Shown here piece after piece: positions 1,836 to 59,120 of a stretch of DNA of 64,000 nucleotides (its first letter is position 1; the number at the start of each line of letters is the position of its first letter). A model generated the notes under the pieces. The model was not told where the DNA came from. It made no database searches and saw nothing but the letters and a program-made list of their open reading frames with translations. The translations under genes and the position numbers were made by a program. The stretch is from an uncultured Bacillota bacterium. GTDB taxonomy: Bacteria > Bacillota_I > Bacilli_A > RFN20 > CAG-826. The stretch is from the NCBI GenBank assembly GCA_949293555.1, contig CASFDV010000003.1:257614-321613 (forward strand). Reading direction: 5' to 3'.

Positions 1836-4800
1836 CTAGCGCGTCCTCCGGACGCAGAGCATCTCGTAGCCGTAGATCCCGAGCGAGTTCGTCACGTCCA
1901 TCGTGGTCCCGGCCTCGCGCCTGGTGCTGTAGACGACCTCGAGCGCGCCCGCCCCGATGCCGATGTCGATCATCTCGCTGTTGTTCATGCGCCCGCCGAG
2001 GAAGAAGTACATGTCGGACCTCGAGGGGTCGATCCTGCTCCACTCGGTCTGGGCGGCGAGGATCGGGCGGAGGCCCGTGACCCCGTCGTAGGCGCCCCGG
2101 GAGATGAGGTCGTCCCAGAGGCGGCTCACCTTGACGGTCCTCTCCCCGTCCTGGTACTCGCCCTGGACGACGTCCTCGTAGGAGGCGGCGAGGTAGCCTT
2201 CCTCGATGAGCGCCCTCCTCGTGCGGACGGCCTCCCTGTACTTCTCGTAGAAGTCCTTGTAGAGGGCCTTCCGGTCCCACTGGAAGGCGTTGACCGCGTC
2301 CCCGTAGCAGTAGCTGTTGCGGATGAGGCGGTTCTCCGTGCCGGGGAGCGAGACGTAGTCGTTCTCCTCGATCTTGTCCCAGTAGGGGTCGCCCGGCTCC
2401 ATGACCTTCGTCCGGAGCATCTCCTCGCCCCCGTGGAGGAAGGCCGCGCCCTGGGAGAGGAGGACCCAGGCGGTGGTCCCGAGGACCGCCTCCGCGACCT
2501 TCTCGACGTTCTTGTCGGTGTCGGCGTCCTTGCCGCCGTCATAGGTGTACTTCAGCTGGTCGTAGAGCGTGTAGTTGTCGTGGCAGCTCACGTAGTTGAG
2601 GGTCTGCGAGGTCGGGGTCGGGATCCCCTTCCCCGTCATCTCGCGCTGCTCGCCGAGGTAGACGACCGCCGCGTTATACATCGTGTCCTCGGAAAGGTAC
2701 TCGGCGCTTTGCGACATGAAGCCGTAGGAAGGCGCCGGGGAGCCCCAGGTGGTGTCGCCCTTGAGGCCGTTCCTCCCGCAGTCGTTGAAGGCGCCGACGG
2801 ACCCCTTCCCGTTCTCGCCCAGATGCTGGTAGACGGCCTCCTTCCCGGCCTGGGACTCCGTCGCGCCGCCCGAGCCCCGCCAAGGCTCGCCGTAGACCAC
2901 GATGTTCGGGTCGATGTCGTAAAGGGCGTCCTTCGCATCGCGCATCGTCTTCCACTCGATCGCGCCCATGAGGTCGAAGCGGAAGCCCATGACCCCCATG
3001 TCGCGGGCCCAGTGGGAGACGCTCTGCACCACGAAGCGCGAGGCCATGAGGCGGTTGGTGGCGAAGGTGTTGTGGACGCCGGTCTCGTCGATGTAGGCGC
3101 CGTTCTCGTCCTTCTTGAAGTAGTAGCCGGGCACGATCTTCTCGAAGCTCGACCCGCTGACGCTCGACATGTGGTTGTAGACGACGTCCATGATCGTCCG
3201 GATGCCCTTCTTCGCGAGGGCGAGCACCATCTCGCGGAACTCCAGGAGCCGGAGGGCGGGGTCGTATGGGTCCGTCGCGTAGGCGCCCTCGACGACGTTG
3301 TAGTTATAGGGGTTGTAGCCCCAGTTGTAGCCCGGGGCCTGGACCTTGGTCTCCCCGTTTTCCTTGTAGGAGAAGGTCCTCTCGTCGTTATCCTGGTCGA
3401 AGAAGGGGAGGATCTGGACGGCGTCCACCCCGAGCTCCTCGAGGTGGTCGATGCCGGTGGTGACCCCGTTATAGGTCGTCCCTTCCTCGGCGAAGGCCTT
3501 GTAGCTGCCCCTGGGGTTCCCCTCGTTCGACACCCAGGTCTCGTCGGCGGTGAAGTCGCGGACGTGGACCTCGTAGATCGTGAGCTCCTCGAGCGAGGTC
3601 CTCGTCTCCTCCTCGCCCTCGGCGTAGCGGAACTTCGAAAGTTCCTCCTCCCAGCCCTCGGGATAGGTCGCCTCGTACTCCTCCTCATAGAGGAGAGCGG
3701 TCCGCTGGCCGTTGATGCCGGCGGAGATGCCGTAGGGGTCGGGCGCCTCGACGGTGGTGCCGCCGTTGCTCACCGCGACCGTGTAGAAGTTGAAGTAGTC
3801 GCAGTAGTAGCCCCGCATCTCGGTCTCCCAGACGCCATGGCCGACAGGGTCCATGTAGAAGAGGCGCGAGGTGTCGTCCCCCGGATGCTCCTCCGTCCCG
3901 AGCGACTTGGGGACCCCGCTCACGTAGGCGCGGATCGCCACCGAGCCGGAAGTCGGCGCCCAGACGCGGAAGCGGAAGCGGTCCTGCTCGGGCACGGAGA
4001 CGTCGCTCATGCCGAGGTCGTCCCCGTCGTAGGTGTACTCCTTGATGAACTTCTCGGAGTCGTAGAGGGCCTCGAAGCTCGCGCCCCCCTGCTTCACGGC
4101 GTCGGGGTTCTGGGCGAAGCGGCACTCGAGGATGTAGTCGTGGTAAAGGGGGACGTCCTCGTCGAAGACGATGTCGAAGGAATTGCTGTTGGGGGTCCCC
4201 TCGGCGATCTTGTAGGTCGGCTTGGCGGGGATCTTCTGGGCGGCGTTCATCTTGTACCAGACGTCGTCGTAGGCGTATAGCTCGTAGGAGGTGACGACCC
4301 CGACCTCCGACTCGTCCCGCCCCTCGGGGACCCCGGTCCCCTCGACGCGGAGGGTGCGCCAGTCGATGAACTTGGCGCTCCCGATGCGGTCGCCCATCGC
4401 GTCCTGGCGGTTCCAGGAGATGTCGACGTTCCCGTTCCCGAGGTCCCAGGAATAGATGTGGATCATCTCGCGGCCGTCCCCGTCCTCCTCGAGGGTGCTG
4501 CTGTAGTCGTTGAGGGTGCAGACGATGTCGGCGCTTTGCCCGGCCCAGGTGCCGCGCTCCTTGATGATGAAGGAGACGCTCGACTGGGCGGCCCGGTTCC
4601 AGGGCGCTTCCTGGAGGTCGACGTCGTAGTAGAGCCCGTAGTCGTCGGGCGCCCCGGCGTTATCGAACTCGTACTCGTAGCCATCGATGCCGACGCCCCA
4701 CACCCAGATCGCCTTGGTCATGTAATTCGCGGTGTCGTTCCGGTAGTGGATCCGGACGATCCCGTCCCAGCCTTCCGGGAGGGGGTCGGCCTCCGGCGGG

Positions 4801-4925
4801 ACCTCGCCCGTGTCGTTCACGGAGCCTGAGGAAAGATCGTCCCCGCCTCCCTCGACCTCGCAGCCAGCGAGGATCGGGACGGAAAGGGCGAGGAGGAAGA
4901 GAAGCGTCAGCGGTCTGAAGCGCAT
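1836..4925 (-). CDS. pulA: Type I pullulanase, lipoprotein (GH13, CBM41)
   Basis: 1029 aa. A signal peptide ends in the lipobox LAGC, so the enzyme is probably membrane-anchored outside the cell. A CBM41/PUD-like domain (residues about 50-130) and a further beta-rich module precede the catalytic domain. The type I pullulanase signature YNWGYNP is near residue 535. GH13 regions follow: DVVYNHM (about 580), GFRFDLMG with the nucleophile Asp (about 648), YGEPW with the acid/base Glu (about 678) and SCHDNY (about 780). It should cleave alpha-1,6 branches of pullulan, glycogen or amylopectin. It is followed directly by the amylase lipoprotein. A LacI-type operator overlaps its predicted promoter, so induction by maltodextrin is likely. 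Confidence 0.93.
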   Translation of the reverse strand: MRFRPLTLLFLLALSVPILAGCEVEGGGDDLSSGSVNDTGEVPPEADPLPEGWDGIVRIHYRNDTANYMTKAIWVWGVGIDGYEYEFDNAGAPDDYGLYYDVDLQEAPWNRAAQSSVSFIIKERGTWAGQSADIVCTLNDYSSTLEEDGDGREMIHIYSWDLGNGNVDISWNRQDAMGDRIGSAKFIDWRTLRVEGTGVPEGRDESEVGVVTSYELYAYDDVWYKMNAAQKIPAKPTYKIAEGTPNSNSFDIVFDEDVPLYHDYILECRFAQNPDAVKQGGASFEALYDSEKFIKEYTYDGDDLGMSDVSVPEQDRFRFRVWAPTSGSVAIRAYVSGVPKSLGTEEHPGDDTSRLFYMDPVGHGVWETEMRGYYCDYFNFYTVAVSNGGTTVEAPDPYGISAGINGQRTALLYEEEYEATYPEGWEEELSKFRYAEGEEETRTSLEELTIYEVHVRDFTADETWVSNEGNPRGSYKAFAEEGTTYNGVTTGIDHLEELGVDAVQILPFFDQDNDERTFSYKENGETKVQAPGYNWGYNPYNYNVVEGAYATDPYDPALRLLEFREMVLALAKKGIRTIMDVVYNHMSSVSGSSFEKIVPGYYFKKDENGAYIDETGVHNTFATNRLMASRFVVQSVSHWARDMGVMGFRFDLMGAIEWKTMRDAKDALYDIDPNIVVYGEPWRGSGGATESQAGKEAVYQHLGENGKGSVGAFNDCGRNGLKGDTTWGSPAPSYGFMSQSAEYLSEDTMYNAAVVYLGEQREMTGKGIPTPTSQTLNYVSCHDNYTLYDQLKYTYDGGKDADTDKNVEKVAEAVLGTTAWVLLSQGAAFLHGGEEMLRTKVMEPGDPYWDKIEENDYVSLPGTENRLIRNSYCYGDAVNAFQWDRKALYKDFYEKYREAVRTRRALIEEGYLAASYEDVVQGEYQDGERTVKVSRLWDDLISRGAYDGVTGLRPILAAQTEWSRIDPSRSDMYFFLGGRMNNSEMIDIGIGAGALEVVYSTRREAGTTMDVTNSLGIYGYEMLCVRRTR

Positions 4926-4950: not shown

Positions 4951-4986
4951 ATCCTAACGCATGCGGGAAAATAAGAAAACGCTTTC
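4951..4986 (-). promoter_or_regulatory. Promoter and LacI-type operator of pulA
   Basis: Read on the minus strand, the palindrome GAAAGCGTTTTC (4975-4986) overlaps a weak -35 TTTTCT (4974-4979). A 17-bp spacer leads to a -10 TAGGAT (4951-4956). The palindrome differs by one base from the perfect LacI-family consensus GAAAGCGCTTTC and also overlaps the stop codon of the upstream GH13 gene. The same operator-over-promoter layout occurs at malE. Confidence 0.6.
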
Positions 4987-6490
4987 AGTAAAGAATCGCG
5001 GATGCATATCCGGACATTGTAAGGATTTCCCCGGATAGTTCCGAATGTCCGGCGGGCGCGTCGAGCCTGAGCCCGGGGGGCACGATGAGCTTGCTCTCGC
5101 CCGCGCCTTTATGGTGGAAGATGAGGATCCTTCCTTCCGGGAGGACAGACTCGAGGGCGAGGACGTCCTCGGGAAGCTCGAGGGCGGGAAGGCGGAACTC
5201 CCCTTTCGCGAAGTATTCGTCGTGGCGGTTCCTCATCGCGACGAGGGCCCTTGTCCTCGTGAGGAGGGAATCGGGGTCCTTGATCGCGTCCTCGGGCGAT
5301 ATGGCGACCGTCTTCTCGACGTAGCCTTCCGGGTTCTTGCAGCGCACCCCGTCCTTCCAGGGCATCGCGGTGCGCCTCGGCGCGTCGCTCAGGGGGCCTT
5401 CGATCCCGCGCTTCCCCTCCATCCCGAGCTCCTCCCCGTAGTAGAGCCACGGGGTCCCGGGCGTGAGGAGGAGGAGCCCCATCGCGAGCTTCATCCTCTC
5501 CCCCTGGTCCTTGGTCCCGGGGGCGACGACATCCTTCCAGCGGTCGGTGTCGTGGTTCGAGACGAAGAGGGCCATCCGCGCCTGGCCGCCGGAAGCCTCG
5601 AGGAGCTTCCGCTCGTCCTCGACGATGCGGCGCGGGTATTCCTTCCAGGCCTTCTTGAAGCTCACCGCGGCCCCGGGGCCCGCCTCCCTGGCCAGGGCGA
5701 GGGGGAAATGGAACATCGGGATCCCCGAGGAGGCGTAGTCGAGGATCGACCGGAGGTCCGGGAAGTCCTCCCATGCCTCGCCGACGATGTAGGCGCCCGG
5801 GCGGTACTTGTCGCACGTCCTCCTGAGGAAGCGGAGGAACTCCACCGTCTTCTCCCGTTCCTGGAAGTAGTAGAACCGCACCGCGTCGAGGCGGAAGCCA
5901 TCCACCCCGAGGGAGAGCCACTTCCGGCAGATCCCGTCGACCTCCCGCCGGACGTCCGGCGAGTCGAGGTTGAGGTCGGGCATCCAGCCGCTGAAGCGCC
6001 CTTCGTAGGCCTTCTTCGCGACGGGGCTATACGTGTAGGCGTGCCGGAGCCCGTCGATGTAGCAGTAGTAATCCGCCTTCGACCCCGGGCCATAAAAGCC
6101 CCGCCCCACGTCCTCCTGGCTCTCCAGGAACCAGGGATGCTGGAAGCTCGTATGGTTGAGCACGAGGTCGACGATGACCTCGATCCCCTTCGCGTGATAG
6201 GCGCGGAGGATCGCCTTCAGGTCCTCCTCGTCCCCGAGGGGCGGGTCGACCATGAGGTAGTCCTCCGTGTCGTAGCGGTGGTAGCTGCCGCTTTTGAAGA
6301 TGGGGGTGAGCCACACCCGCCCCACCCCGAGCGCGTCGAGGTAGGGAAGCGCCTCGAGGATGCCCTTGAGGTCCCCCTTCCCGTCCCCGTCCCCGTCGCG
6401 GAAGCTCTCGACGAAGATCTGGTAGCCGACCCCGCCCTTCCGAGGGCAGGAGAATCCTTCGCCCCCGACGATTTCCTTCAGTTCGATCAT
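4985..6490 (-). CDS. Cytoplasmic GH13 alpha-glucosidase/maltodextrin hydrolase
   Basis: 501 aa with no signal peptide, so probably intracellular. GH13 motifs are complete: a Ca-site-like DGDGDGKGD loop (about 34-42), region I DLVLNHT (about 110), region II GFRLDAV (nucleophile Asp), region III VGEAW (acid/base Glu) and region IV SNHD. The size suits a neopullulanase- or glucosidase-like enzyme acting on imported maltodextrins. It lies downstream of malG but is separated from it by a terminator and has its own -10 box, so it can be expressed separately. The start MIELKEIVGG has no clear SD. Confidence 0.85.
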   Translation of the reverse strand: MIELKEIVGGEGFSCPRKGGVGYQIFVESFRDGDGDGKGDLKGILEALPYLDALGVGRVWLTPIFKSGSYHRYDTEDYLMVDPPLGDEEDLKAILRAYHAKGIEVIVDLVLNHTSFQHPWFLESQEDVGRGFYGPGSKADYYCYIDGLRHAYTYSPVAKKAYEGRFSGWMPDLNLDSPDVRREVDGICRKWLSLGVDGFRLDAVRFYYFQEREKTVEFLRFLRRTCDKYRPGAYIVGEAWEDFPDLRSILDYASSGIPMFHFPLALAREAGPGAAVSFKKAWKEYPRRIVEDERKLLEASGGQARMALFVSNHDTDRWKDVVAPGTKDQGERMKLAMGLLLLTPGTPWLYYGEELGMEGKRGIEGPLSDAPRRTAMPWKDGVRCKNPEGYVEKTVAISPEDAIKDPDSLLTRTRALVAMRNRHDEYFAKGEFRLPALELPEDVLALESVLPEGRILIFHHKGAGESKLIVPPGLRLDAPAGHSELSGEILTMSGYASAILY

Positions 6491-6551: not shown

Positions 6552-7487
6552 CTAGCCCTTGACCGCGCCGCCGGTGACGCCGGCCACGTAGTACTTCTGC
6601 ATGAACATGAAGATGATCGTGGTCGGGATCGCGACGCACACCGCGCCGGCGCAGAAGGTGCGCCAGTAGGGCGGGCGGGAGTTGTAGTCGCCGTCGTTCA
6701 GCATCCCGTAGAGCGTGCGGGCGACGGTCCAGTTGTCGTAGGCCGGGGCCTTGGCCGGGCCCATGATGTAGGCGGAGGTGATGTAGTCCCCCCAGGGGCC
6801 CATGAAGGCGCCGAGGGCGACGTTGACGACGATGGGCTTGGAGAGCGGGAGGATGATCTTGTAGAAGATCTGGAAGCGGGTCGCCCCGTCCACCATCGCG
6901 GCCTCGTCGATCTGCTTCGAGATCGTGTCGAAGAAGCCCTTGGAGACGTAGTAGTTCGTCCCCGCGCCGATCGAGTAGATGAGGGCGAGGATGAAGAGGT
7001 TCCGGAGGGCGCCGGTGTCGTCGATCCCCTGGAGCGTCCAGTAGATGACGATCATGCCGAGGAAGCCCGGGAACATGCCGATGACGAGGATGATCCGCAT
7101 CATGAGCGTCCGGCCCTTGAAGCGGAGGCGCGAGAAGGCGTAGGCGCTGCAGAGGGTGAAGCAGGTGGCGATGACCATCGAGAGGAGGGCGACCCAGATC
7201 GTGTTGGTGAAGGAGCCCAGGGCCAGGGAGCCGCTGTCGGTGATCATGCCGAACCAGTTGAAGCGGGCCGGCGTCAGGTTCCCGTTGAGGTAGACCTGGT
7301 TCGTCGCCAGCATCATCCATGGGTCCGTCGACCAGGAGTTGGGGAGGAAGAGGTTCGCCGAGCCCATGTCGGAGTCCCCGGAGAAGCTCTGGAGGACGAG
7401 CCAGATGATGGGCGAGACCCAGCAGACGGCGATGATGGCGAGGATGAGGTAGACGGCGGCGTCCGCCGCGATGCGCCTTGTCTTCAT
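6552..7487 (-). CDS. malG: Maltodextrin ABC transporter permease MalG
   Basis: 311 aa integral membrane protein of the MalG/BPD_transp_1 family with about six membrane segments. The cytoplasmic EAA loop (EAAMVDGATRFQIFYKIILP, about residues 193-212) would dock on the MalK ATPase. It forms the import channel with MalF. The ATG overlaps the malF stop by one base (TAATG), so the two are translationally coupled. No ATPase gene lies in this operon; candidates are at 51.9 and 57.0 kb. Confidence 0.93.
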   Translation of the reverse strand: MKTRRIAADAAVYLILAIIAVCWVSPIIWLVLQSFSGDSDMGSANLFLPNSWSTDPWMMLATNQVYLNGNLTPARFNWFGMITDSGSLALGSFTNTIWVALLSMVIATCFTLCSAYAFSRLRFKGRTLMMRIILVIGMFPGFLGMIVIYWTLQGIDDTGALRNLFILALIYSIGAGTNYYVSKGFFDTISKQIDEAAMVDGATRFQIFYKIILPLSKPIVVNVALGAFMGPWGDYITSAYIMGPAKAPAYDNWTVARTLYGMLNDGDYNSRPPYWRTFCAGAVCVAIPTTIIFMFMQKYYVAGVTGGAVKG

Positions 7488-10345
7488 TACTGGAAGGCCT
7501 CCTCGTTCTGGACCGATCCAAGGCGGCTGTAGGCTACGAGCGAGAAGAAGCCGCAGAGGATGAAGATGATGATGCCCAGGGCCGAGCCGAGGGCGAAGTT
7601 CTGCTGGGTCGAGTCGGTCGCCAGGGTGTAGAGCCAGGTGATGAGGAGCGAGGTCTCGCCCGCTCCTGTGACGAGGAGCGGGTTCGTCCCCTTCGGCTCG
7701 CCGTTGGTGAGGAAGAAGATGACGTTGAAGTTGTTGATGTTGCCGACGAAGGTCGTGATGAGCGAGGGGCCGGTGACGAAGAAGATGTAGGGGAGGGTGA
7801 TCGAGGCGAGCTGGCGGAAGGGGCCGGCCCCGTCGATCTGGCTCGACTCATAGAGATCGCTCGGGATGTTCATGAGGATGCCCGAGGTCGAGAGGACGGT
7901 GAAGGGGATGCCGATCCAGATGTTCACGAGGATGACCGTGAGCTTCGGGATGATGGCCCAGTTGTCGCCCGAGCCCTGGCCCCGGACGAAGGGGATGCCG
8001 CCCGTCGACCAGACGCCGTTGCCGCCCATCGATCCCCAGCCCATCGACTGCGAGAGCCCGACGAACCAGTCCTGCTTGATGAGCCAGGAGTTGATGAGGC
8101 CGCCCTGGTCAGCCGGCTGGAGCATCTTGTTCATGACCATGAGCGAGATGAATCCCGGGACGGCGACGGTGATGATGAGGATCGTGCGCCAAACCCGCGG
8201 GAACTTCAGCCCCTTCCGGTTGATGAGGAGGGCGACGATGATGCCGAGGATGTAGCAGCTGAAGGTCGCGCAGATGGCCCAGACGATCGTCCACCCGAGC
8301 AGGCGGAGGAACGTGTAGCCGTAGCTCATCGTCGTGGTCTCAGAGGATGACGCGCCGAAGATGTCCGAGAGCTGCTCCCACGCGCTCGCCTCCCACTGGA
8401 AGACGTCGAGGTGCTGGAGGTTCCAGTTCGTGAACCCGACGAAGAGCGAGCATAGGAGCGGGATGATCGTCACGATGAGGCAGCCCAGGACCGGGAGCGA
8501 CATGACGGTGACGGCGAACTTCTCGTCCGCGAACTGCTTGATGCGGCGGAGCGAGGTGACGGGCTGGCCGTGGAAGCCCATGACGCGGAGGGACTTCAGC
8601 CTCCGCTCGTAGCGCCGGGCGAAGCGCTCGAGGAGCTCCCGGTTGTCCTTCCCTTCGCGCGAGGCGAGGTCCGAGGCCTGGTAGAGGTCGTAGAGGGCGA
8701 GCCCGTCCTCCGGGAGGACCCCCTGCGCCTCGGCGGCCTTCAGGAAGTTCTCCTTCCCGAGGGCGAGGTTCGCCTCGAGGACGCTCGGGTCGCGGGCGAG
8801 CTCGACGGTCCTCTCCGCGGAGCGGATGGGGGCGTCGTGGTAGCGCTCCACGAACTCGTCCATGTATTCCTGGTGGTGGAGCGAGATCTCCTTGAAGCGG
8901 AGGATGCAGGCGTTCCGGAGCTCCTCGCCCCGGAGGCCCTCCTTCCTCTTCTGGTCGATGACCTGGATCGCCGCCTTCGTGATCCTCCGCCCGAGGGGGA
9001 AGGTGATCTCGAAGGTGCCGATGACCGCGGAGACGCGCTTCTTGACGGTGAGCTTCGCCTCGTCCGGGAGCGTGGCCTCGCCGTTCTTCTCGGAAAGGAT
9101 GTCGCGCCCGAAGATCGAGTCGAAGAGGGACTCCCCCGCCCCGAAGACGGCGACGAGGGCCTTCTCGTCGCGGATGGTCGCGAGGTAGTCGTTGTACTTG
9201 TCGTACTTATGGGAGAAGCGGATGAGGGCGAGCCTCTCCTCCTTCAGGAGGACGTAGCGCCCGTACTTGTCCTTGGGCTTCTGGAGATACCAGTAGCAGT
9301 AGCGCTCGAGCGCCCCGAACCAGAAGAGGTGCTCGAGGACGTACTTCCGGCAAGGGTCGTAGACGGTGAGGTACCAGGATTCCTTGATCTTGCGGAAGAA
9401 GCCGGCCGTCTTCTCCCAAAGAAGCAGGAAGAAGGCGCGGGTTTTGCTGAGGAAATCGCCTTCGGAACGGAAGATGTTCCCGATGGAGGAGGAGCCGTCC
9501 TCCCCGATCGCGAGGCTCCTGGGGTCGGCGGCCCTTCCCCACTTGACGCGGGAGGCCACCCTCGCCGAGAGGCGGTCGAAGGCGTACTCCTTCCGGAGGA
9601 CGCGGTTCACTCCCCCGGAGGTCATGCGCGAGAAGTCGACGACCTCGCCGGCCTTGTTCGTCCCGTGGTACGCCTCGGGGTGGCCGATCACGTGGATGGA
9701 CTCGATCCGGGCGCGCTTGTACTTGTCCGCGACCGTGATCATGTAGGAGTCGTAGGCGCCCTTGATGCTCAGATAGTAGCAGACGAGGAAGCCGACGACG
9801 ATCACCCAGGCATAGAAGCCGAAGATGAGGTCGATCCTCGAGTTCAGCTGGCCCTCGTTCCCGAGGTTGATGAACTGGATCATCGCGCCCACGCCCATCC
9901 CGACGTCCCCTCCAACGGGGATGAACATGTAGAAGAGGAAGGCGAGCTCGACGACGAGGAACACCGCGCCGTCCAGCCACTGCTTCCGCTTCAGCTGGCT
10001 CGCGCCCATGACGAGGAAGCTCAGCTTCCCCGCCCAGTCCATGTCGTTGAACATCTGGACGGCCTTCCGCCCGAGCATGTAGATGCCGGGGATGATCATG
10101 AGGATCGCGCCCAGCACGTACTTGACGACGAGCAGCAGGTACTTCAAGGCGTCATAGACGATGCCGCCGATGAAAAGCGCGACCTTCAGGAGGAAGCGGA
10201 GCACCGCGATCCCCGCGGTTCTCCACCACGGATCGGGCGTGAACTCCGTCTCCTTGAGGGCGTTCAGCTCGGACAGGTCAAGGGCCTTCTCGCCATCCTC
10301 CTCAGCCGGGGCGGCGAGAACGTCCTTCTTTGTCTCTTCGCTCAT
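7487..10345 (-). CDS. malF: Maltodextrin permease MalF with ~400-residue cytoplasmic insertion
   Basis: 952 aa, about twice the usual Firmicute MalF (430-450 aa). Residues about 43-92 hold two extra hydrophobic segments. Residues about 105-200 match the usual Firmicute MalF N-terminus (KLSFLVMGASQL, then two membrane segments). Residues about 205-620 form a long, mostly helical, charged, cytoplasmic-looking insert that I cannot assign. The permease core follows (about 625-952), with the docking loop near SSQIDGAGPFRQLASITLPY. The frame is continuous and the insert shows no stop or frameshift. Start MSEETKK has a clear SD (AGGAG). A strong hairpin separates it from malE. Confidence 0.9.
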   Translation of the reverse strand: MSEETKKDVLAAPAEEDGEKALDLSELNALKETEFTPDPWWRTAGIAVLRFLLKVALFIGGIVYDALKYLLLVVKYVLGAILMIIPGIYMLGRKAVQMFNDMDWAGKLSFLVMGASQLKRKQWLDGAVFLVVELAFLFYMFIPVGGDVGMGVGAMIQFINLGNEGQLNSRIDLIFGFYAWVIVVGFLVCYYLSIKGAYDSYMITVADKYKRARIESIHVIGHPEAYHGTNKAGEVVDFSRMTSGGVNRVLRKEYAFDRLSARVASRVKWGRAADPRSLAIGEDGSSSIGNIFRSEGDFLSKTRAFFLLLWEKTAGFFRKIKESWYLTVYDPCRKYVLEHLFWFGALERYCYWYLQKPKDKYGRYVLLKEERLALIRFSHKYDKYNDYLATIRDEKALVAVFGAGESLFDSIFGRDILSEKNGEATLPDEAKLTVKKRVSAVIGTFEITFPLGRRITKAAIQVIDQKRKEGLRGEELRNACILRFKEISLHHQEYMDEFVERYHDAPIRSAERTVELARDPSVLEANLALGKENFLKAAEAQGVLPEDGLALYDLYQASDLASREGKDNRELLERFARRYERRLKSLRVMGFHGQPVTSLRRIKQFADEKFAVTVMSLPVLGCLIVTIIPLLCSLFVGFTNWNLQHLDVFQWEASAWEQLSDIFGASSSETTTMSYGYTFLRLLGWTIVWAICATFSCYILGIIVALLINRKGLKFPRVWRTILIITVAVPGFISLMVMNKMLQPADQGGLINSWLIKQDWFVGLSQSMGWGSMGGNGVWSTGGIPFVRGQGSGDNWAIIPKLTVILVNIWIGIPFTVLSTSGILMNIPSDLYESSQIDGAGPFRQLASITLPYIFFVTGPSLITTFVGNINNFNVIFFLTNGEPKGTNPLLVTGAGETSLLITWLYTLATDSTQQNFALGSALGIIIFILCGFFSLVAYSRLGSVQNEEAFQ

Positions 10346-10414: not shown

Positions 10415-11785
10415 CTATTCCTGCGGAAGAGTGGAGTAGTCGTACCAGCCGTCGCTGCCGCAGAGGGTCTGGAGCTTGGCCTTGCAGTCCTCGATCGAGG
10501 CGAAGGCGTCCCCGGTGGCGTTCAGGATCCCGCTGCAGAGCTGGTTGCTGATCGGAGTCCAGAAGGTCGGCGCGACGTTCGCGCCCTGGGCGACGTAGGC
10601 GCCGGACTCGATGGTCTTGTTGATGGCGGCCATGTGCGGGAGGGCGGCGAGCTCCTCGGCGTACTCCTTCTGCACGTTGAGGTTGGTGACGCCCTGCTGG
10701 AGCTCGGTCACGCGGAGAGCCTGGTTCTCCTCGCTCGCGGCGAAGAGGGCGAAGGCCTTGGCGGCCGCGACCTTCTTCTCAGAGACGTTGCTCTTGACGG
10801 CCATGCCCTTGTAGCCGACGAAGGGCTTCAGCTGGTGAGTCCTGGACCCATCCTCGCTGGAGAAGGTCGGGAGGGTGGTGCACTTGACCTCGGGACGGCT
10901 GTCCTCGGTGATCTTGGCGAGCTCCTTCTGGGTCTCGTTCCAGAAGTTGTAGATGACGTAGGCGGCGGTCGGCTTCTCGCTCTGCGGATCGAGCCCGGCG
11001 AGGATGCCGGCGGTGTCGGCCTGGTCAGAGGCGACCATGTTGCTGGTGTACTTCTTGTAGAGGCTCACGAAGTCGTAGAGCGCCTCGGCGACCTTCTCGT
11101 TGCTCGCGAAGTCGGCGACCTGGACGGTCTCGTCGTTCACGACGCGAATCTCCATCTTGCCCTCGGAGAAGAGGACGGAGGGAAGGACCCAGCTGTTCCC
11201 GATCTGGAAGTAGACGGTCGCGTTCGCCTCGGCGGCGGCCTCGAGGATGGTGTTCATCGACTTGGCCTGCTCGTCGGAGACGATGTTGGTGTTGTAGTAG
11301 AGCATGTAGCTGTTGTCGTTCCGGTAGGGGACGGCGAGGAGGTCGTCGTCGACCATGAACGCGTCGACCGCGCCCTGGCCCTCGGAGGCGACGAGGTCGG
11401 CCTTCTCGTCGTTGAAGTCGAGGAGGTAGCCGGCGTCGTTCATCGAACGGGCGTTGTCATCGGCCATGCAGAAGACGTCGGCGGCGCTGGCGATGTCCTT
11501 GCCGGCGTTGGTCCAGATGTCGCCCTCGCCCATCTGCGCGAGGACCTGGACGTCGAGGGTGCCGGTGACGTTCCCTGCCTCGTCCTTGAGCTCGAGGACG
11601 TCCTTGTGCGCCTCCTTGAAGGCGGGGATCACGGTGTCCTCGAAGTAGCTGATGTCGCTCTCCGGCGCCCAGAGGGTGACGACGTTCTCGTAGGGATCGC
11701 TGCAGCTGGTGAGCGCCACGCCCCCTACGCCGGCCACCATCGCGAGTCCGGCGACCGCGATCAGGCCCTTTTTGAGATTAATCAT
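10415..11785 (-). CDS. malE: Maltodextrin-binding lipoprotein MalE
   Basis: 456 aa extracellular solute-binding protein family 1. The signal peptide ends at lipobox LTSC (Cys about residue 28). The body has the alternating Asp/Ala-rich segments of sugar-binding proteins (for example DIWTNAGKDIASAADVF and VGYKGMAVKSNVSEKK). It delivers maltodextrins to MalFG. It is the first gene of malEFG, has an SD (AAGGAG) before ATG and a leader of roughly 85 nt. Substrate is inferred from the neighbouring amylase, pullulanase and GH13 genes. Confidence 0.9.
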   Translation of the reverse strand: MINLKKGLIAVAGLAMVAGVGGVALTSCSDPYENVVTLWAPESDISYFEDTVIPAFKEAHKDVLELKDEAGNVTGTLDVQVLAQMGEGDIWTNAGKDIASAADVFCMADDNARSMNDAGYLLDFNDEKADLVASEGQGAVDAFMVDDDLLAVPYRNDNSYMLYYNTNIVSDEQAKSMNTILEAAAEANATVYFQIGNSWVLPSVLFSEGKMEIRVVNDETVQVADFASNEKVAEALYDFVSLYKKYTSNMVASDQADTAGILAGLDPQSEKPTAAYVIYNFWNETQKELAKITEDSRPEVKCTTLPTFSSEDGSRTHQLKPFVGYKGMAVKSNVSEKKVAAAKAFALFAASEENQALRVTELQQGVTNLNVQKEYAEELAALPHMAAINKTIESGAYVAQGANVAPTFWTPISNQLCSGILNATGDAFASIEDCKAKLQTLCGSDGWYDYSTLPQE

Positions 11786-51921: not shown

Positions 51922-53283
51922 CTAGTAGATCCTCTTCTCCGTGATGGGGTCGAAGATGTGGGACTTCTTGACGTTCACGAGGATGTCGAGGTCCTCGCCG
52001 ATCTTGATTTCCTTCACGAGCGGGATCTTGGCGACGAGGTCCCCGGCGCCGAAGGTCGTGTGGATGTAGTACTCGTGGCCGAGGAGCTCGGCGACCTCGA
52101 CCTTGACGCGGTAGGGGTTCACCCCGTAGCGCTCCTCCCTCTCGGGGCTCCACTCGTGGATGTCCTCGGGACGGATGCCGTAGATGACGTCGTGCGAGCC
52201 TCCGAGGGCCGCCTGGAACTTGGCGATGTCCTCCTCGAGCTTCGCCACCTGGGCGTCGACGTTCGGGTCGCGCTTGGCGGCGTTCTCCTCGGAGAGCTCC
52301 TTGATCTTGGCCTTGGCCGCGGCGATCTCGCCGTTATAGAAGTCCTCGTGGGCCTTCCTCACGGCCTCGGTGGTCTTCACCTCGAAGGTGCGCCCGTCCT
52401 TGTCGAGGAGGACGACCCTGTCCCCTTCCCAGCGGGCCTTCACCATGTTCATGGCGGGGCTCCCGATGAAGGTGGCGACGAAGACGTTGGCCGGGTTGTT
52501 GTAGATCTCGATGGGCGAGCCGATCTGCTGGATGTAGCCGAGCTTCATGACGACGATGCGGGTGGCCATCGTCATCGCCTCGGTCTGGTCGTGGGTGACG
52601 TAGATGGTGGTCGCGCCCAGGGCCTCGTGGAGCTTGATGATCTCGGAGCGCATCTGCACGCGGAGCTTGGCGTCGAGGTTCGAGAGCGGCTCGTCCATGA
52701 GGAACAGCTTCGCGTTCCGGACGATGGCGCGCCCGAGGGCGACCCTCTGCCTCTGGCCGCCGGAGAGCGCCTTCGGCTTCCGGTCGAGGTACTCCTCGAT
52801 CTGGAGGATCTTCGCCGCGCGGTGGACGCGGGTGTCGATCTCGGCGCGCGGGAGGTGGCGGATCTTGAGCCCGAAGGCCATGTTGTCGTAGACCGTCATG
52901 TGCGGGTAGAGCGCGTAGCTCTGGAACACCATCGCGATGTCGCGGTCCTTCGGGGTGACGTCGTTGGAGTAGTTCCCGTCGATGTAGAGCTCGCCGTTGG
53001 TGATGTCCTCGAGGCCGGCGATCATGCGGAGGGTCGTCGACTTCCCGCAGCCGGAGGGGCCGACGAAGACGATGAACTCGTGCTTCTGGATGTCGAGGGA
53101 GAAGTCGAAGACGGCCTGGACGCCGTTGTCGTAGATCTTGTCGACGTGGCGGAGCGAGACGTAGGCCATCCCGTCGTCGGCCTCGGGCTTCCTAGCGGAA
53201 AGGTTCTCCGCGGGGACGGGGGCGGGCTCCTTCGCCTCCTCGATCGTGGCCTCGGGGGCCGGTTTCTTCTTGAACAACGCCAT
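51922..53283 (-). CDS. msmK: Sugar ABC transporter ATPase MalK/MsmK (first copy)
   Basis: 453 aa (usual 360-370). A 38-residue Pro/Glu/Ala-rich N-terminal extension precedes the NBD: Walker [10 protein letters not shown] (about 76-84), signature LSGGQ, Walker B LFLMDE, H-loop THDQTEA. In the C-terminal regulatory region a coiled-coil insertion (about 317-361, [14 protein letters not shown]...) interrupts the TOBE domain before IRPEDIHEW. It energises MalFG-type importers. SD AAGGAGG; the promoter carries a LacI-type operator like that of malE. Confidence 0.93.
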
Positions 53284-57029: not shown

Positions 57030-59120
57030 CTACTTCTTCCTGAGGACGAGCTTCCCGTAGTCGAGCGCGTAGGCCGGGCGCTTCTCGCCGAAGCAGCTGT
57101 CCTCCGCCTCGCCCTTGATGGTGAGGTAGTCCTTGAAGCCTTTGACGTTCGCGTAGAGGATCGTGCAGTCCCCGAGGTGGTCCTCGTTGACCGGGTGGAT
57201 GCGGAAGGTCTTCCCGCGGAGAGCTTCCTTCCTCGCCTTCTCCTCGGCCTTCTTCCGGGCCTTCTCCTCCTTTTCCTTGGCCTTCCGGGCCTCCTTCTCC
57301 AAGAGGCGGCGCTTCTTCTCCTCCTCGATCTCCGCGGGATCCTTCCCGGCGAGGCTCCTCTTCCTCTCGGCGCGGAGGACCATCAGGCGGTCCCAGCCCT
57401 CGCGGAGGAGGAGGGAGAGCTTCTTTTTCTTCTCCCTGGCCTTCTTCCCGCGCGAGGCCTTGATGAAGGCGTCGTAGGGGATCTCGAGCTCGTAGGAGCC
57501 GATCTCCCATTCCTCGGGGCAGAGGAGGTCGAATGAGGCGAAGCGGAGGTGCTTCCTGCCGCCCTTGAGGACGACTTCCGCGTCCACGAGGTTCCTCGTG
57601 TAGGGATGGAGGGCGATGAGCCTATGGCCATGCCCCTCGTCGACGAGGACGGCCTCCTTCCGGGAGACATAGAGGTCGATCTCCTCGCCGGGGGCCTTCT
57701 CGACCTTCGGGAACTTCGCGCCGACGTAGCTCTTCCTTCCCGGGAGCGAGAAGAAGAGGAGCGTCTCCTCCTTTCCTTCCTCGAGGGAGACGACCTTCGC
57801 CTTGAAATGGAGGTCGTCCTCCCCGGCGGGCAGCAGGTGGAAGGAACGGGATCCTACCATCAGGGCGCACTTCCCGTCCTTCTTCCCCCTCATCCCGGGG
57901 ACGAGGCGCTCCATCTCCTCCGGGGAAAGGGCGAAGGAGGCGCCAAGGCAATCGACCCTGCCCGTCTCCCCGTCGAGCGTGGCCTCGAGGTAGTTCTTGC
58001 TCATGAGCCCGGCGATGCGGCGCCCCTCGCCCTCGCCCTCGAAGAGGTGGAACCTCCTCTCGTCGAGACGCACCGGGAGCGTTTCCCCTTCCTTGACCCC
58101 GAGCCTTCCGTCCGCGCGGAGGAGGAGGCGGATGCGGCTGCCCTTCAGATAGCAGTAGAGGATGAGCTCGGCCCCGAGCTTCTCGATCATGTCGACGACG
58201 ATCTCGAACTGCGGGTTCTCCTTGTCGATGATGACGTCCTCGGGGCGGATCCCGAGGCGGACCTTGAGCCCGTCCTTCGCCTCCTCGGAAAGGAGGCTCC
58301 CCATCGTCTTCCCGAGGGGGATCCTTAGCTCGTAGTCGCCCTCGCGGACGTAGCAGGACCATTCCCCTTCCTTCTCCTCGAGCGTCCCGTCGAAGAGGTT
58401 CATCTGGGGCGTCCCGAGGAAGGTCGCGACAAAGACGTTCGCCGGGTGGTCGTAAAGGTTGGCCGGCGTGTCCACCTGCTGGATGAGGCCGTCCTTCATG
58501 ACGACGATCTCCGTCCCCATCGTCATCGCCTCGGTCTGGTCGTGGGTGACGTAGACGAAGGTCGTCCCGAGGCGGCGGTGGAGCTTGCTGATCTCCGCGC
58601 GCATCTGGACGCGGAGCTTGGCGTCGAGGTTCGAGAGCGGCTCGTCCAGGAGGAACACCTTCGGCTCGCGCACGATGGAGCGCCCGAGGGCGACCCTCTG
58701 GCGCTGGCCGCCGGAGAGGGCGCGGGGCTTCCTCGTGAGGTAGGGCTCCAGGCCGAGGATCTTCGCGGCCGCCTTGATGCGGCGGTCGATCTCGTCGGGC
58801 GGAAGCTTCTGCATCCTGAGCCCGAAGGCCATGTTCTCGTACACGGTCTTGTGCGGGTAGAGCGCGTAGTTCTGGAACACCATCGTGATGTCGCGCTTGC
58901 TCGGCGGCAGGTCGTTGACCCGCTCCCCGTCGATGTAAAGGTTCCCCGCGCTGATTTCCTCGAGCCCGGCGATCATGCGGAGGGTCGTCGACTTCCCGCA
59001 GCCGGAGGGGCCGACGAAGACGACGAACTCCTTGTCCTTGATGTCGAGGCTGAGGTCGGTGATGGCCCGGACTCCCCCGGGATACACCTTGTAGACGTGC
59101 TCGAAGCTGACGCTTGCCAT
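57030..59120 (-). CDS. Sugar ABC ATPase (MalK-like, second copy) with ~325-aa C-terminal extension
   Basis: 696 aa, nearly twice normal. Residues 1-370 are a complete MalK: Walker [10 protein letters not shown] (38-46), [13 protein letters not shown], Walker [14 protein letters not shown]-loop THDQTEA, and TOBE domain with GIRPEDV. Residues about 370-555 are extra beta-rich modules. Residues 556-635 are a highly charged Lys/Glu/Ala coiled coil, and the last 60 residues form a small unknown domain. The frame is clean. It is the last gene of an operon that encodes a LacI regulator and PfkB kinase. Confidence 0.9.
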   Translation of the reverse strand: MASVSFEHVYKVYPGGVRAITDLSLDIKDKEFVVFVGPSGCGKSTTLRMIAGLEEISAGNLYIDGERVNDLPPSKRDITMVFQNYALYPHKTVYENMAFGLRMQKLPPDEIDRRIKAAAKILGLEPYLTRKPRALSGGQRQRVALGRSIVREPKVFLLDEPLSNLDAKLRVQMRAEISKLHRRLGTTFVYVTHDQTEAMTMGTEIVVMKDGLIQQVDTPANLYDHPANVFVATFLGTPQMNLFDGTLEEKEGEWSCYVREGDYELRIPLGKTMGSLLSEEAKDGLKVRLGIRPEDVIIDKENPQFEIVVDMIEKLGAELILYCYLKGSRIRLLLRADGRLGVKEGETLPVRLDERRFHLFEGEGEGRRIAGLMSKNYLEATLDGETGRVDCLGASFALSPEEMERLVPGMRGKKDGKCALMVGSRSFHLLPAGEDDLHFKAKVVSLEEGKEETLLFFSLPGRKSYVGAKFPKVEKAPGEEIDLYVSRKEAVLVDEGHGHRLIALHPYTRNLVDAEVVLKGGRKHLRFASFDLLCPEEWEIGSYELEIPYDAFIKASRGKKAREKKKKLSLLLREGWDRLMVLRAERKRSLAGKDPAEIEEEKKRRLLEKEARKAKEKEEKARKKAEEKARKEALRGKTFRIHPVNEDHLGDCTILYANVKGFKDYLTIKGEAEDSCFGEKRPAYALDYGKLVLRKK

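Follow-up and report, generated by a model that had tools for sequence, protein, structure and literature searches.

The maltodextrin locus and the permease core

The window, that is, the whole stretch of 64,000 nucleotides that was analysed, comes from an uncultured Bacillota bacterium with a genome of 1.34 Mb (97% complete). It carries on the reverse strand the gene order malE-malF-malG-GH13-pullulanase, which together with the lipoprotein-type signal of the pullulanase points to an operon for maltodextrins. Its genes are as follows, with malF given both with and without the stop codon.

10415..11785 (-): malE, solute-binding protein, upstream of malF (PF13416, E 2.2e-18)
7487-10345 (-): malF open reading frame, 952 aa, uninterrupted
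7490..10345 (-): malF coding sequence without the stop codon, 952 aa (open frame; PF00528; PRK10999 below cut-off)
6552..7487 (-): malG, partner permease (PF00528; NCBIfam MalG model, E 3.6e-37)
4985..6490 (-): GH13 alpha-glucosidase-type enzyme, with no evident signal peptide (PF00128, E 3.6e-68)
1836..4925 (-): type I pullulanase with a lipoprotein-type signal, extracellular (TIGR02104, E 7e-126; LAGC box N-terminal)

Within malF the following features are considered in this work.

10043..10228 (-): hydrophobic helix near the N-terminus, residues 40-101, added in the long-insertion clade (AlphaFold2 helix and hydropathy)
9923..9979 (-): first helix of the standard N-terminal pair, residues 123-141 (AlphaFold2 helix; hydropathy peak 126-144)
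9734..9841 (-): second helix of that pair, residues 169-204, continuing into the cytoplasmic domain (AlphaFold2 helix; hydropathy peak 171-189)
8522..9769 (-): cytoplasmic insertion, residues 193-608, about 416 aa (alignments; all-alpha in AlphaFold2)
9185..9211 (-): signature HKYDKYNDY, residues 379-387, with KYDKYN at 380-385 (motif in all 39 long insertions)
7490..8521 (-): permease core, residues 609-952 (PF00528; E. coli MalF structures by sequence and fold)
7790..7852 (-): EAA-type motif for contact with the ATPase, residues 832-852 (YESSQIDGAGPFRQLASITLP), read from the sequence

The core is matched by PF00528 (BPD_transp_1) over residues 699-940 with E 1.5e-14 and 54.6 bits, above the gathering cut-off of 26.4, and it matches the E. 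coli MalF structures both by sequence (best E 7e-30) and by fold (E 4.6e-12). The NCBIfam MalF model PRK10999, a proteobacterial equivalog, gives E 1.2e-40 but only 139.7 bits against a curated cut-off of 392, a shortfall that is expected for a MalF of the Gram-positive type. The EAA-type motif is intact, with Y832, E833, G839 and P852 invariant across 39 MalFs. Judged by these matches, the protein is identified as MalF by its core, and the core reads as a regular sugar-importer permease. Thus the claim of a reading made beforehand from the sequence alone, that a 952-aa MalF with an intact frame and a standard permease core lies here, is borne out.

That sequence-only reading also described a standard N-terminal membrane pair. 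The pair is indeed present, with hydropathy peaks at residues 126-144 and 171-189 and 27 aa between its two helices, but it is preceded by extra hydrophobic segments at residues 45-63 and 70-88. The hydropathy peak of this extra N-terminal region is at least 1.7 in every full-length member of the long-insertion clade described below, while among the short-loop MalFs the same region gives values below 1.2 in several, 1.5-1.9 in some and still higher ones where the N-terminus is very long. It is also noted that N-termini of 216-289 aa occur in several other MalFs (L090-L093), and that in another (L122:2947-5040 (-)) the N-terminus is a charged coiled coil of about 230 aa.

The insertion in the TM2-TM3 loop

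In a segment-by-segment alignment with short-loop relatives, only the TM2-TM3 loop changes length, being about 416 aa in the window MalF and 30-31 aa in the relatives, so that about 385 aa are extra. The window genome itself encodes a second MalF (L066, 476 aa), whose loop measures 31 aa at the corresponding place. The sequence-only reading had placed the insertion at residues 205-620 (8485-9733), of which the N-terminal end is right while the other end runs about 11 residues into TM3. Residues 619-646 correspond in sequence to the helix by which E. coli MalF runs outward to its periplasmic P2 loop; from this match and from the established topology of MalF it follows that the insertion faces the cytoplasm.

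The insertion is real and conserved and is not an assembly error. The G+C content at third codon positions is 0.964 in the insertion, 0.927 in the N-terminal part and 0.959 in the core, and the codon use of malF fits that of the operon and flanks and is homogeneous across the insertion, as had been claimed beforehand. MalFs that are 98%, 91% and 69% identical are present whole in other assemblies, and because homologous insertions are present in another 38 MalFs of related genomes, an assembly error is excluded. An assembly or annotation artefact in which two genes were fused could be argued from one relative (L083, genome G145), where a frameshift or an assembly fault inside the insertion has broken the long malF into overlapping frames of 374 and 575 aa. 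Against it, many independent assemblies have an unbroken frame, in two cases with 98% and 91% identity over the whole length, and the codon use is homogeneous, which leaves it an exceedingly small probability.

The insertion is under purifying selection. Its dN/dS is 0.15-0.25, against 0.05-0.10 for the core, where both ranges come from two close relatives, the more distant ones being saturated at synonymous sites.

The long-loop clade and its conserved signature

The survey of MalF lengths in relatives that the sequence-only reading had proposed confirmed that the insertion is real, but showed the window MalF to be one of 39 rather than a singleton. Together with the 62 other MalFs of the comparison set, it was sorted by loop length. 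The TM2-TM3 loop exceeds 220 aa in 39 (the window MalF and 38 others), with insertions of 232-997 aa, and in the tree of the core a branch supported at 98/98 groups all 39 together. The clade of KYDKYN-insertion MalFs is defined in this analysis, and the window MalF has all its characters: a loop above 220 aa, the pattern Y-x-[KRS]-[YF]-N and a place in the long-loop clade. Only one other loop outside the 39 exceeds 200 aa, a highly charged one of 203 aa at the same position (L089:3489-5540 (-)); its MalF is placed among the short-loop MalFs in the tree, and it looks like an independent gain. The longest insertion, 997 aa in a MalF of 1514 aa (L065:6008-8998 (-)), lies at the same place in a locus of 25% G+C and keeps YDKYN.

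A profile made of 15 insertions gave matches in 24 of the 279 genomes of the order; two genera account for 22 of these, with strong scores. A second, very different insertion subfamily was detected in other genera as well as in one additional family of that order. Outside the order there was a single match, weak and with stops in its frame. The profile found no standalone copy of the domain, with one match in the window genome, and the strong matches elsewhere are long frames or else pieces of such genes at contig ends or splits. The long-loop MalFs adjoin MalG wherever the contig extends far enough.

Across the clade the identity of the insertion to the window sequence drops to about 20%, with one block retained, KYDKYNDY in the first subfamily and KYGKFNVYY in the second. 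The pattern Y-x-[KRS]-[YF]-N is found in 39 of 39 long insertions, and the strict form [YF][DGE][KRS][YF]N in 38 of 39, the exception being YAKYN in L060, against 0.48 expected from shuffles. Although the pattern was picked after inspection of the sequences, the excess is far too large for this choice to matter. Compared as whole alignments, the two subfamilies match weakly (E 0.011, in the C-terminal part only). Better scores were obtained when two segments, both picked after the sequences had been seen, were compared alone: the first 25 residues of the insertion are collinear between the subfamilies (E 3.6e-5), and the KYDKYN block aligns with the KYGKFN block (E 0.0028). We take this as one ancestral insertion, probably with a fast-evolving surround, though most of the domain may have been replaced between the two subfamilies. 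Three helix-turn-helix-like stretches that look alike by eye were considered as internal repeats and rejected, the profile comparison being unsupportive (best P 0.01).

Predicted fold

AlphaFold2, run on the insertion with 23 relatives, predicts a compact, all-alpha domain (pLDDT 89, pTM 0.77), and the full-length model gives the same insertion helices between the helices at residues 169-204 and 610-636. This model, the alignments and the topology support the earlier description of a real, mostly helical domain on the cytoplasmic side. The insertion had also been said to match nothing recognisable, and the searches agree. Even with E-values up to 1 admitted, Pfam gave no match to the insertion of the window MalF, and in relatives only stray single-member matches; searches of Pfam, NCBIfam and PDB sequences with the insertion and the two subfamily alignments found no family; and with Foldseek the insertion model had no significant match in the PDB (best E 0.78, TM 0.12) and none among viral structures (best E 0.39). 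No profile assigns the loop to a known MalF subfamily domain, the domain being clade-wide but unnamed, and a search of open-licence papers found none that describes a MalF with an insertion on the cytoplasmic side. The predicted fold may be called new only in the sense that it has no match among solved and viral structures. The maltodextrin importer at this locus is in other respects an ordinary one, and what sets it apart is a conserved domain not described before.

Two other views of the domain can be weighed here. It could be a tolerated, slowly ratcheting expansion of the loop, with a small structural core in the KYDKYN block and no specific partner. This would fit the wide range of insertion lengths, the dN/dS above that of the core, and the unrelated expansions in MalFs of the class, such as the extracellular 300-aa insertions, the 203-aa loop of L089 and the long N-termini. 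It is opposed by the compact fold predicted with high confidence, by the purifying selection, by the retention of the motif in every long insertion and by the presence of the insertion in reduced genomes of about 1.3 Mb, and we consider it rather unlikely. Alternatively, the domain itself could be an enzyme or a small-ligand sensor, as the polar residues of one helix pair might suggest, D190 and N193 (insertion numbering) being invariant and H187, K191 and R200 nearly so. Yet the second subfamily retains just the Y-x-K-F-N part of those residues, and no enzyme or sensor family or fold was matched, so that such a function is very improbable.

Proposed role of the domain

We propose that MalF is a subunit of a maltodextrin ABC importer made of MalE-MalF-MalG with a shared MalK, and that a folded, all-alpha domain was gained in its TM2-TM3 loop a single time during the evolution of this order of Bacilli. 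In the MalFGK2 complex the domain would hang beside the MalK dimer and serve as a platform for protein docking or regulation, probably contacting MalK or MalG and so adjusting or stabilising the transport cycle, in hosts that mostly lack the PTS proteins controlling this importer elsewhere. Contact or switching would take place at the conserved KYDKYN face, and the variable helices that surround it would be tuned from lineage to lineage. To this explanation as a whole, a once-acquired all-alpha domain acting as a docking or regulatory platform in the transporter complex, we give a probability of roughly 0.45. We infer the platform role from the position, the fold, the selection and the conserved block, with the partner presumed; the variation in length and sequence outside the motif, which is more than most regulatory domains show, counts against it. 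A more specific version is offered tentatively, with the odds against it: the domain would be a new all-alpha family confined to MalF, built into the importer to regulate maltodextrin uptake from the cytoplasmic side in Bacilli mostly without PTS control, and its KYDKYN helix pair would form the contact or switch surface.

Concerning the PTS, no match to HPr or to HPr kinase was found in the window genome, with a kinase model that is insensitive (3 of 14 control genomes). HPr is present in 9 of 196 genomes of the family, most of which appear to be without a normal PTS. Control of the importer through HPr and HPr kinase is thus improbable in the window genome. Two of the nine HPr-bearing genomes (G102 and G192) carry the insertion as well, so the domain is not a simple substitute for PTS control, and no anti-correlation of the insertion with HPr was seen.

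As for the partner, the coupling to an intracellular enzyme that the sequence-only reading had suggested can be put as a docking of the operon's cytosolic GH13 on the insertion, with imported maltodextrins cut on entry. The GH13 gene follows malG, as read by hand, in 34 of 34 long-loop loci whose contig is long enough to show it (an automatic rule with a strict gap limit counts 22, as over-long ORF starts overlap the neighbour), and in 7 of 24 loci of the short-loop MalFs and L089. But the association is explained by ancestry within the same clade, and GH13 also adjoins seven MalFs whose loops are short or nearly so (30-54 aa). Moreover, in a mirror-tree analysis with Mantel tests over 13 genomes, a weak test, the divergence of the insertion does not significantly track that of any partner beyond the MalF core, the partial r being 0.22 for MalG (p 0.09), 0.11 for GH13 (p 0.25), 0.06 for MalK (p 0.36) and -0.21 for MalE (p 0.90). 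The coupling is thus not supported so far, and we regard such channelling as unlikely.

Two MalK-type ATPases are encoded in the window. One of 453 aa (51922-53283 (-)), 68-99% conserved in relatives and with its regulatory OB/TOBE region enlarged by a coiled-coil-like insertion, is probably the shared, multitask ATPase. The other, of 696 aa (57030-59120 (-)), has normal ABC, OB and TOBE domains in its first approximately 360 residues, followed by about 330 residues that match nothing in Pfam and that end with a charged coiled coil and a small C-terminal part; strong matches to this extension are confined to six genomes of the order. A link of the MalF insertion to the extended MalK was rejected, the extension being found in a different set of genomes.

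Lying in the permease subunit itself, a conserved, folded cytoplasmic domain without a known fold hints at a further means to control or organise maltodextrin uptake across a large group of uncultured Bacilli. The short-loop MalF paralog in the same genome provides a natural control for testing the role of the domain.

Comparison with known systems

The maltose importer is a textbook type I ABC importer, with known regulation through the ATPase subunit. The window MalF resembles E. coli MalF (PDB 2r6g, 3fh6, 4jbw) in the fold and sequence of the core, in the EAA-type motif and in its MalG and MalE partners. The extra domain of E. coli MalF, P2, is periplasmic and follows TM3, whereas that of the window MalF is cytoplasmic, precedes TM3, is all-alpha and is unrelated to P2; the segment corresponding to TM3-P2 is 66 aa in the window MalF.

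With the short-loop MalFs of the same family (for example L066 of the window genome, L077 and L103) the window MalF shares the N-terminal pair and the lengths of the core segments, while they differ in their TM2-TM3 loop of 30-31 aa and, in most cases, in lacking the strongly hydrophobic extra N-terminal helix. Other orders of the class have long MalFs (L114-L121, L123 and L125; 657-882 aa) that likewise combine a MalF core with a large insertion near the N-terminal pair. Unlike in the window MalF, their insertion of about 250-400 aa lies between the helices of the pair, on the extracellular side, their TM2-TM3 loop is short, and the inserted sequence is, by eye, unrelated; the 27 aa between the pair helices in the window MalF set it apart from this type.

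Finally, cytoplasmic regulatory domains near ATPases are known from the MalK regulatory domain bound by EIIAGlc, from the C2 domain of MetN and from the CBS domains of OpuA. Those domains belong to the ATPase subunits and have known folds, whereas the domain described here belongs to the permease and has no fold match.
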